Shown piece by piece: positions 13,900 through 17,019 of a stretch of 37,491 nucleotides of DNA. The notes under the pieces were generated by a model that was given only the letters and a program-made list of their open reading frames with translations, had not been told where the DNA came from and ran no database searches. Location of the stretch: contig SXJR01000418.1 of assembly GCA_005779305.1 (NCBI GenBank), forward strand, positions 1-37,491. Direction: 5' to 3'. Position 1 is the stretch's first letter. Every line of letters starts with the position of its first letter. Position numbers and translations under genes: made by a program. The DNA is from Myxococcales bacterium. Its GTDB lineage: Bacteria; Myxococcota_A; Polyangia; Haliangiales; Haliangiaceae.

Positions 13900-14676
13900 C
13901 TAGAACCCCGGCGTCTCCATCGGGCCCGACGACTGACCCTGGATGAACTGCTGGACGATGGGGTCGGGGCTATCGCGCAGCTCGGCCGGGGTGCCGACGG
14001 CGTGGACGCGGCCCTGGTAGAGGAAGGCGACGCGATCGGCGATCGAGAAGATCGAGGCCAGATCGTGGGAGACCACGACGGCGGTGACGCCGAGGTTGCG
14101 CGACAGCTCGAGGATCAAGCGATCGATGCGTCGAGCGTTGACCGGATCGAGGCCGGTGGTGGGCTCGTCGAAGAGCACGACCTCGGGATCCATGGTCAGG
14201 GTGCGGGCGAGGGCGGCGCGCGTGCGCATGCCGTCGGAGAGCTCGGCCGGGTAGCGATCGGAGAAGCCGGTCAGGTAGACCTGCTCGAGCCGACCCATGG
14301 CTTCGGCCAGGGCCGAGGTGTGGCGCAGCTTCTTGTGCTTGCGCAGGGGCAGGGCCACGTTCTCGGCCAGGGTCATCGAGTCGAACAGGGTCGCGTTCTG
14401 GAAGACCATGCCGACCCGGCGCCTGACCGCGTAGAAGCCTTTCTCGTCGAGCTGGTCGACCCGCTTGCCGTCGAACCAGATCTCGCCGGTGTCGATGCGG
14501 AGGAAGCCGACCAGGTGCTTGATGGTCACCGACTTGCCCACGCCCGAGGTGCCGATGATGAAGAGGATCTCGCCCTTGCCGACGGTCAGGTTCATCCCGC
14601 GCAGCACGGGCTTGCCGTCGAAGGCCTTGTGGACCTCGCGGAACTCGATGAGCGGCGCGGCGGCCCCGGGCGACAT
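13900..14676 (-). CDS. MlaF-like ABC ATPase, first copy (altered signature motif)
   Basis: A 258-residue ATPase of the MlaF/Ttg2A family, which powers MCE lipid transporters from the cytoplasmic face. Walker A is GTSGVGKS, the Q-loop is MVFQNATLF, Walker B is VVLFDEP, the D-loop is TTGLDPVN, and the H-loop His is present (VVSHDLAS). The signature is LSDGM instead of the usual LSGGM: an Asp replaces the first conserved Gly. Length and C-terminal tail fit MlaF. The stop codon of the preceding permease gene overlaps its ATG by one base (TGATG), so translation is coupled. The altered signature should weaken the ATP site that this subunit completes for its partner; see the finding on the two ATPases. 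Confidence 0.88.
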
Positions 14677-15491
14677 CAGACGTCACCGCCGAACAGCCAC
14701 AGGGCGCCGACCGAGAGCATGAAGTCGAGCGCGATCACCGCGAACGAGCTGCCGACCACGGCGGCGGTGGTGGCCCATCCCACGCCCTCGCTCGAGCCGC
14801 GGGCGCGCAGGCCGCAGAAGCCGCTGACGATGGGGATGGCCGCGCCGTAGCAGAAGGCCTTGAGCAGGCCGAGTCCGAGGTGGCGCGGCTCCACCATCGC
14901 CAGGTCGTAGAAGACGCGCGGGTTGACGCCGAACGACAGGTACGCGGTCAGCCCGCCGGCGCCGTACATGATGGCCGCGCCCAGGATCGACAGCACCATG
15001 GTCATGACGATCGAGGCCAGGAAACGCGGCACCAGCAGGTAGTCGATCGGCAGCACGCCCGACATGCGCAGGGCATCGACCTGCTCCGTCACCTTCATCG
15101 AGCCGATCTCGGCGGCGATGCCGGCGCCGACCCGGGTGGCCAGCATCATCGACGTGAGCGTCGGCCCCAGATCGGAGACGATCAGGCGGGCGAACTGGAC
15201 GCCGATCTGCGACAGGTCGCCGACCGAGCGCGAGAACTGCAGGCAGGCCTGGTAGATCATCACCATGCCGATGAACCCGACCGTGACGACGATGAACAGG
15301 AGCGAGCGGTTGCCGATGACGTGCATCTGCTCGACCAGCGCGCCCGGGGGCCGCGTGGCCCCGCGCCGACCATAGAGCCGCCAGATGCCGGCGATGGTGC
15401 CGACGAAGACCATCCACAGTTCGAACGCCGCGCGCAACACGCCAAGGGCGTAGGCCCCGACCCCGGCGATGCGGTCGACGAGGTAGTTCAT
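14676..15491 (-). CDS. MlaE-like permease, first copy
   Basis: A 271-residue inner-membrane permease of the MlaE/YrbE family, which forms the membrane core of MCE transporters. The ATG at 15491 overlaps the stop of the upstream permease by four bases and fixes the start. Recognised features are an N-terminal interface helix, the [10 protein letters not shown] segment, then [24 protein letters not shown] (the conserved coupling helix region that contacts the ATPase) and about five hydrophobic helices ending in [12 protein letters not shown]. It differs clearly from the second permease in this operon, so the transporter may have a mixed permease pair, as do actinobacterial YrbE proteins. Confidence 0.88.
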
Positions 15492-16264
15492 ACGTTGAGA
15501 TAGGTGAGGAAGAAGTCGAGCAGCATGATCGACACCGCGGCCGCGACCACCGCGGCGTTGACGGCGCGGCCGACGCCGACCGCGCCGCCGCGTACCGTGA
15601 CCCCGAAGTAGCAGGAGGTCACGGCGATCGAGAGGCCGAACGCGATCGACTTGTAGATGCCGTGCAGGAAGTCGGCGGGGCTCAGGTTCTCGACGAAGCT
15701 CGCGTACATGATGCCGAACTCGATGTCGAGGACGCCCTTGGCGACCAGCATCGCGCCCGCCAGCGCGATGAGGTCGCCGATGCAGGTCAGGCAAACCAGC
15801 ATCACCATCATCGCCACCACCCGCGGCACGATCAGGTAGCGGATCGGATCGATGGCGAGCGCGCGCAGGCCGTCGAGCTGCTCGGTGACGGTCATGGTGC
15901 CGAGCTCGGCGGTATTGTTGGCGCCGACCCGGCCCGAGAACATGAGCGCGATCAGGATGGGCCCGACCTCACGCAGGACGGCGTAGCCAGCGGCCCAGCC
16001 GGCCAGGGACGTGGCCTGAAGCCGTTGTACGAACGGCGCTGCCTGCACCACCATGAGGCCGCCGGTGAAGAACGCGGTCAGGGCCACGATCGGCACCGAG
16101 CGGTTGCCCATCTTGTGCAGGTTCTTGACCAGCTCGCGTCCGTCGAGGCGCGGGGGCAGGAGCGCACGCAGGATCTGGGCGAACAGGATCGTGATGCCGC
16201 CGATCTCGCGGCTGACGGCCACGGCCCGGGTGCCGACTGCGTTGATGGCGCGCTCGCCGATCAT
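15488..16264 (-). CDS. MlaE-like permease, second copy
   Basis: A 258-residue MlaE/YrbE-family membrane protein. Conserved parts include the MGNRSVPIVALTAFFTGG helix and GRVGANNTAELGTMTVTEQL, which holds the coupling segment next to the ATPase. About five to six hydrophobic helices follow the usual pattern, ending in [12 protein letters not shown]. The Asn-Asn in GANNTAELG replaces the Ile-Ala of GAGIAAEIG in the first copy, so the two permeases are not recent duplicates. It follows its ATPase gene by 14 bases and overlaps the next permease by four, in the order ATPase, permease, permease, ATPase. Confidence 0.88.
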   Translation of the reverse strand: MIGERAINAVGTRAVAVSREIGGITILFAQILRALLPPRLDGRELVKNLHKMGNRSVPIVALTAFFTGGLMVVQAAPFVQRLQATSLAGWAAGYAVLREVGPILIALMFSGRVGANNTAELGTMTVTEQLDGLRALAIDPIRYLIVPRVVAMMVMLVCLTCIGDLIALAGAMLVAKGVLDIEFGIMYASFVENLSPADFLHGIYKSIAFGLSIAVTSCYFGVTVRGGAVGVGRAVNAAVVAAAVSIMLLDFFLTYLNV

Positions 16265-16278
16265 CGTGGGTCGACAGC

Positions 16279-17019
16279 CTATCCCACCAGCGGACCGTCG
16301 AGGGCGCCGCGCACGAACTGGCGGACCACCGGATCAGGCGCGTCGGCGACGGTGGCGGCTGGACCCTGGTAGTGGGCTCGGCCCTGGTAGAGGAAGATCA
16401 CGGTGTCGACGAAGCCAATCAGCGCGGCCACGTCCGACGACACCGCGATGGCGGTGGCGCCGCTCTGCTCGTGGTCGGCGCGCAGCAGGTCGTACATCTT
16501 GGACGTGGTCACCGGATCGAGGCCGGCGGTCGGCTCGTCGTACAGCACCAGCTCGGGCGCGGCGATGGTGGCGCGGGCGATGCCGACCCGCTTCTTCATG
16601 CCGCCCGAGAGCTGCGACGGCAGCTTGTGCTCGCTGCCGGCCAGGCCGACGGCGCGCAGCCGATCGCGGACCCTCTGCGCCACCTGATCGGCGGGCTCGC
16701 CGCGGCGGACCAGCGGGAATCCGACGTTGCCCTCGACGGTGAGGAAGTCGTAGAGCGCGTAGTTCTGGAACAGCATACCGATCCGGGCCCGCACCGGCGC
16801 CAGCCGCTCTTCGGTGAGACCGGTGACGTCGGTGCCGTCGATGATCAGGCGGCCGCTGCTGGGCGCGACCAGGCCGGCGATCACCTTGATCAGCACGCTC
16901 TTCCCCGACGCCGCCGGGCCGATGATGCCGAGGCGGGCGCCGCGGGCGACGTCGAGGCGCACGCCGTCGAGTACCTGACGCGAGGCGAAGCGGACGCCGA
17001 CGTCCTGGAGCTCGATCAT
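16279..17019 (-). CDS. MlaF-like ABC ATPase, second copy (H-loop His missing)
   Basis: A 246-residue MlaF-family ATPase. Walker A is GPAASGKS, the Q-loop is [10 protein letters not shown], the signature is a normal LSGGM, Walker B is LVLYDEP, and the D-loop is TAGLDPVT. The H-loop reads AVSSDVAAL, where relatives have a His before the Asp (compare VVSHDLAS in the first copy). The Ser codon is clear in the sequence. Loss of this switch His usually abolishes hydrolysis at that subunit's own site. With the altered signature of the other copy, both defects would meet in one site of a heterodimer. The gene follows the TPR lipoprotein by 7 bases. Confidence 0.87.

Follow-up and report, generated by a model that had tools for sequence, protein, structure and literature searches.

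The E. coli transporter MlaFEDB combines MlaF-like ATPases with MlaE permeases and MCE proteins, and its ATPase is described as an MlaF homodimer with the signature LSGGM (PMC7367683). Mycobacterial Mce1 is described with two different permeases (YrbE1A/B), six different MCE proteins (Mce1A-F) and two copies of one ATPase, MceG (PMC9882608). In Veillonella, MlaEFD is an MCE transporter with an elongated MlaD that bears an outer-membrane barrel, and was modelled as a 2:2:6 complex of a single E, F and D (PMC10665443). Each ATP site of an ABC dimer consists of the Walker A/B motifs and H-loop of one subunit and the signature of the other (PMC7756269). In TM287/288, TAP, CFTR and MRP, one of these sites has a changed signature together with Asp for Glu or an altered H-loop (PMC5216877, PMC7756269). 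Among human degenerate sites the signature is changed in all and Glu to Asp is the next most common change (PMC7756269), and what such sites are for is described as only partly understood (PMC5216877).

The locus reported here lies in a 37,491-nt stretch of DNA (the window) and encodes two ATPases (A and B), two permeases (E1 and E2) and two MCE proteins (D1 and D2; Table 1). It shares its families of components with MlaFEDB, but where E. coli has a single ATPase acting as a homodimer, here two conserved and divergent ATPases (40% identical in the window) appear to take its place. The asymmetry extends beyond the ATPases, with two permeases and two MCE proteins as well. Two different permeases, which form the E1 and E2 clades, and different MCE proteins are likewise found in Mce1, whereas six MCE proteins and one ATPase are replaced here by two of each. 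The locus resembles Veillonella MlaEFD in being an MCE system with an elongated MCE protein, and differs from its single E, F and D and its barrel-bearing MlaD. The exporters with a degenerate site show comparable changes in one ATP site but have an exporter fold in place of MlaE-type permeases and MCE proteins. CFTR, whose signature is changed, is the closest match by residue, as it also has an H-loop Ser. From the sequences, we consider it quite probable that the product of the locus is an MCE-family (type VIII, MlaFE-like) ABC transporter for lipids that is heteromeric throughout, in which A and B would form a heterodimer with one hydrolysing and one degenerate site.

Table 1. Features of the transporter locus, with positions in the whole 37,491-nt window.
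Feature	Position	Strand	Remarks
ATPase A	16279..17019	minus	246 aa; Pfam ABC_tran; would give site I its canonical LSGGM
A Walker A GPAASGKS	16897..16920	minus	fourth residue Ala, Lys kept
A signature LSGGM	16597..16611	minus	canonical for MlaF
A H-loop AVSSDV	16429..16446	minus	Ser for His; conserved in the window's class
Permease E1, MlaE family	15488..16264	minus	Pfam MlaE 2.9e-67, 226.8 bits
Permease E2, MlaE family	14676..15491	minus	Pfam MlaE 1.7e-53, 181.8 bits
ATPase B	13900..14676	minus	258 aa; Pfam ABC_tran; conserved C-terminus ...GPMETPGF
B Walker A GTSGVGKS	14530..14553	minus	canonical
B signature LSDGM	14227..14241	minus	non-consensus; predicted site II
B H-loop VVSHDL	14059..14076	minus	canonical; predicted site I
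MCE protein D1	5305..6321	plus	Pfam MlaD 2.2e-16, 60.3 bits; N-terminal membrane helix, helical tail
MCE protein D2	6326..7429	plus	Pfam MlaD 7.3e-7, 29.8 bits
TPR protein just upstream of A	17027..18091	minus	Pfam TPR_6/TPR_16

Read 5' to 3' on the minus strand, the order is TPR protein, A, E1, E2, B, so that the ATPase genes flank the two MlaE permeases; E2 overlaps both of its neighbours, its ATG with the E1 stop and its stop with the start of B. The MCE genes D1 and D2 are 6 kb away from this cluster, on the plus strand. A second copy on another contig of the same genome (C424) has A, E1, E2, B, D1 and D2 contiguous on one strand, and because D1 and D2 directly follow B there, the MCE genes belong with the ATPase/permease system. 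The source genome (8.1 Mb, 611 contigs, 75% complete) holds six MlaE and six MlaD Pfam matches in all, as well as a lone MlaF-like gene on contig C147 whose motifs are intact. Unlike the window's A, the A of the second copy (L021:7592-8263) is missing some 16 residues ahead of the Q-loop and terminates early. Adjoining the window's cluster is a regulator gene with FHA and sigma-54 activator parts (9780-11300, minus strand).

The best NCBIfam match of both ATPases is MlaF, at 214.8 bits for B and 165 for A, below the equivalog cut-off of 441; by that cut-off they are not E. coli-type MlaF equivalogs. Among solved structures, E. coli MlaF is the top relative of B (2.1e-54) and one of the top three for A (1.2e-46). 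E1 and E2 score far over the Pfam MlaE cut-off of 22.5 bits, and at 195.5 and 169.5 bits they do not reach the TIGR00056 subfamily cut-off of 212.2. D1 and D2 both exceed the Pfam MlaD cut-off of 25.1 bits. An AlphaFold model of D1 built with 17 sequences (mean pLDDT 54.7) was confident for the membrane helix and MCE domain and of low confidence (pLDDT <50) for the tail (residues 144-338). The C-termini of D1 and D2 share a similar motif, G.G[TS].G.L ... PW, suggesting that the tips of their helical tails make a common contact.

An earlier note on this DNA had drawn attention to LSDGM in place of LSGGM in B, with the H-loop His kept, and to Ser in place of the H-loop His in A, with a normal LSGGM. 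Both changes are seen in the minus-strand translations, and the spans given for the genes hold, but it is the minus strand that encodes them, plus-strand frames there being meaningless. We collected 111 A and 110 B sequences from Myxococcota (one duplicate removed) and 107 other MlaF-like ATPases from the same scans. The phylum search gave 167 genomes with a profile match, and 79 usable regions from that listing were taken in; its profile threshold of 1e-75 admits ordinary MlaF as well. We define site I as the signature of A with the catalytic residues of B, and site II as the signature of B with the catalytic residues of A.

At site I, A has [SA]GG in 111/111 (SGG in 110, AGG in one), and in B both the Glu of Walker B and the His of the H-loop are present in 109 of the 110, the remaining sequence being cut by a contig end. 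At site II, SGG occurs in none of the 110 B: the signature is GDG in 79, SDG in 27, GPG in two, SSG in one (LSSGM in G035) and GPS in one, and the third residue is Asp in 106. The catalytic residues of A are affected in different ways, with His to Ser in 60 sequences, Glu to Asp in 48, both changes in two (one of them in G062) and neither in one. The single exception (G278) has Glu and His in A and FGDGM in B. A third departure at site II, unnoticed by the earlier note, is that the fourth Walker A residue of A is usually Ala (GP[AG]A) in the window's class. Site II therefore carries the sequence marks of a degenerate site in 110/111 A, which are without Glu, His or both, and in 110/110 B. Read against the predicted sites, the retention or loss of a motif tracks the ATP site to which it would contribute, not the protein that carries it. 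This pattern says that the signature of A and the catalytic residues of B are probably under selection jointly, while the signature of B and the catalytic residues of A are not constrained to the hydrolytic consensus.

The exact pair of changes, an LSDGM-type B with a Ser-type A, co-occurs in the window's class, while elsewhere in the phylum A keeps His. Orthologues with only one change, which had been named as grounds for rejecting a single degenerate site, do exist, both in the other classes and in G278; Asp for Glu in the 48 sequences nevertheless leaves the same site degenerate. By its motifs, a single degenerate site is more widespread than was proposed, and the exact pair is class-specific. 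The most decayed A (L324 in G034) has the Walker B sequence ICGDPT, with Asp lost, and the H-loop SSD, and still has the signature LSGGQ.

Among the 107 other MlaF-like ATPases, Glu and His are present in 104 and SGG in 100, figures to be read with the origin of the set, as 84 of the 107 came from outside the phylum search and many of these from a scan with patterns favouring canonical signatures. An earlier count of 100 controls had 23 from the phylum searches, with Glu and His in 23/23 and LSGG in 16/23. The three sequences without Glu or His have no visible partner; the C-terminal half of a fused double ATPase accounts for six of the seven without SGG, and the seventh (L329 in G180), a single MlaF, combines LSSGM with intact Glu and His. 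Such changes are thus possible outside pairs, as these three sequences and L329 demonstrate. Chance or sequencing error as their source in A and B was ruled out by recurrence in 110/111 A and 110/110 B.

Both sites might still hydrolyse ATP, if Asp or Ser together with an altered signature were tolerated and the complex were functionally symmetric. The Walker B Glu is indeed retained in 60 of the 62 Ser-type A of the window's class, and we know of no assay of a GDG or SDG signature. We nonetheless regard symmetric hydrolysis as unlikely, since the loss of Glu or His coincides with the changed signature, always on one side, and comparable sites in exporters are described as hydrolysis-incompetent (PMC5216877).

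The two ATPases are inherited together. A was found in 105 genomes, B in 104 and both in 103; A occurs alone in G020 and G114, both fragmented assemblies, and B alone in G151. A and B are often unlinked: B is not adjacent to A in 30 genomes, and in 29 of these it was found elsewhere. Where A and B lie within 4.5 kb on one strand (n=72), A comes first in 72/72 and the order is A-E1-E2-B in 69. Two of the remaining three pairs have E1 only (G023, with E2 at a contig edge elsewhere, and G133), and in the third the second permease belongs to the E2 clade despite scoring as E1. Of 39 genomes apparently without A, 34 have neither gene at the thresholds used, which divergent members may escape, four have both (G034, G045, G070 and G233) and one has B alone (G151). 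On rechecking the same 39, four gave a B match of E 1e-95 or stronger, and A adjoins B in G045, G070 and G233; in G034, A is beside a B weaker than the 1e-95 threshold. A contig scan of the best 80 of 590 relatives, with patterns that favour LSGG[MQ] and DEPTAGLD, found the A-B pair only in L093 and L096, both Myxococcales. A strongly reduced genome (G025, L058; 1.6 Mb, 98% complete) still has A, E1, E2, B and D1.

These data bear on whether the operon might instead encode two homodimeric transporters, A2 with E1 and B2 with E2. The scattered arrangement of family f24, in which A-E1, E2 and B-D1 are found at separate places, would suit such a division. An A2 dimer would, however, be without Glu or His in both of its sites and a B2 dimer without SGG in both, in nearly all of the 111 and 110 sequences, and B is missing from just two of the 105 genomes with A, the fragmented ones. 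The site-wise motif pattern is predicted by an A-B heterodimer with one working site and not by A2 and B2 homodimers, which we hold to be very unlikely.

In the first tree, A formed one clade with support 1.0, divided into a Ser-type subclade of 61 sequences (0.935) and an Asp-type subclade of 46 (0.969). Support at the base of the B clade was 0.229 in that tree and 0.999 with more sequences, and a smaller model-based tree recovered A (21 rows) and B (20 rows) each as one clade at 99. A and B may have arisen by duplication of one ATPase, though the trees run did not support them as sister clades. In the permease tree, the E1 clade (102 sequences) and the E2 clade each had support 1.0, and E1 and E2 together 0.844. 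Separate, orthologous and co-inherited clades, together with the site-wise retention of motifs, support the earlier note's proposal that, if A and B dimerise, both defects fall in one site and leave the other canonical; its contrast with a homodimeric MlaF agrees with the E. coli description (PMC7367683).

A has diverged more rapidly than B, with mean pairwise identities of 48% and 61%, and A is lower in 5509 of 5565 pairs, which are not independent. This faster evolution, the lost catalytic residues and the further loss of the Walker B Asp in the A of G034 could be taken as signs of a paralogue in decay or in a regulatory role, with no ATP site completed by A. Such a paralogue is highly improbable, given that [SA]GG, GK[ST] and the D-loop xGxDPV, the parts that the partner's site needs, are each kept in 111/111 and that A is intact across the sampled phylum.

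Behind the favoured A-B heterodimer stand results read from the sequences themselves: which genes are present, that these are conserved and co-inherited, and that motifs are lost site by site. From them we infer that A and B pair physically. A and B would form one head-to-tail heterodimer beneath an E1-E2 heterodimer. Site I, with the Walker A/B motifs and H-loop of B and the signature of A, would hydrolyse ATP, turning over once per cycle. Site II, with the Walker A/B motifs and H-loop of A and the signature of B, would probably bind ATP without efficient hydrolysis; binding is plausible because the P-loop Lys is present in every A. Occlusion of ATP at site II is likewise presumed, and the site may act as a long-lived ATP clamp holding the ATPases together, much as bound nucleotide in the degenerate site of TM287/288 is described as stabilising contacts between the ATPases (PMC5216877). 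A lipid substrate and the direction of transport are suggested by family membership, MCE systems being lipid transporters.

A bolder version, which we put forward tentatively and think somewhat doubtful, would make every layer obligately heteromeric: the ATP clamp of the A-B ATPases would be permanent, E1 would pair with E2, and D1 and D2 would together form a mixed MCE ring with a helical tunnel. The same site would also have been inactivated independently in two lineages, through removal of opposite halves of the Glu-His pair. If so, the inactive site would be positively demanded and not relaxed, and the asymmetry would make the lipid machine cycle in one direction.

It is chiefly in exporters that degenerate ATP sites are known. 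Myxococcota appear to drive an Mla/MCE-type lipid pump with two different ATPases that share one working and one degenerate site, unlike the E. coli and mycobacterial pumps, which use two identical ATPases. The open-access papers searched yielded no account of paired MCE ATPases or of this Myxococcota operon, and a term search of the text of PMC3924187, on Myxococcus xanthus, found no mention of MCE. The apparent inactivation of the same site in two ways among orthologues would offer a natural experiment on the role of an inactive ATP site, set in a class of lipid transporters whose compared structures have identical ATPases. The locus also supplies a full parts list, which could be expressed and tested, for an envelope lipid transporter that has received little study and is widespread among the Myxococcota sampled.

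Several further arrangements were observed. In the window, a phage-type integrase gene (24219-25556) opens a stretch (24219-37361) that may be a mobile island; the third-position GC of the chosen open reading frames there is 0.74-0.85, below most of the remainder, and the two large ones tested had no Pfam match. Clusters in L238/L107, L248, L249, L327 and L331 have two MlaE permeases with one canonical ATPase, a layout like that of the mycobacterial two-permease systems. In L066-L071, two MlaF-like ATPases are fused within a single frame of about 530-560 codons, and the regions fetched around them had no MlaE match. The first half of these fusions has LSGGM and the second ISEGQ, VSEGQ, ISEGE or LSLGE, with Glu and His in both halves; the neighbours include SIR2 and an acyl-CoA thioesterase in L067 and an LEA_2-like protein in L068.
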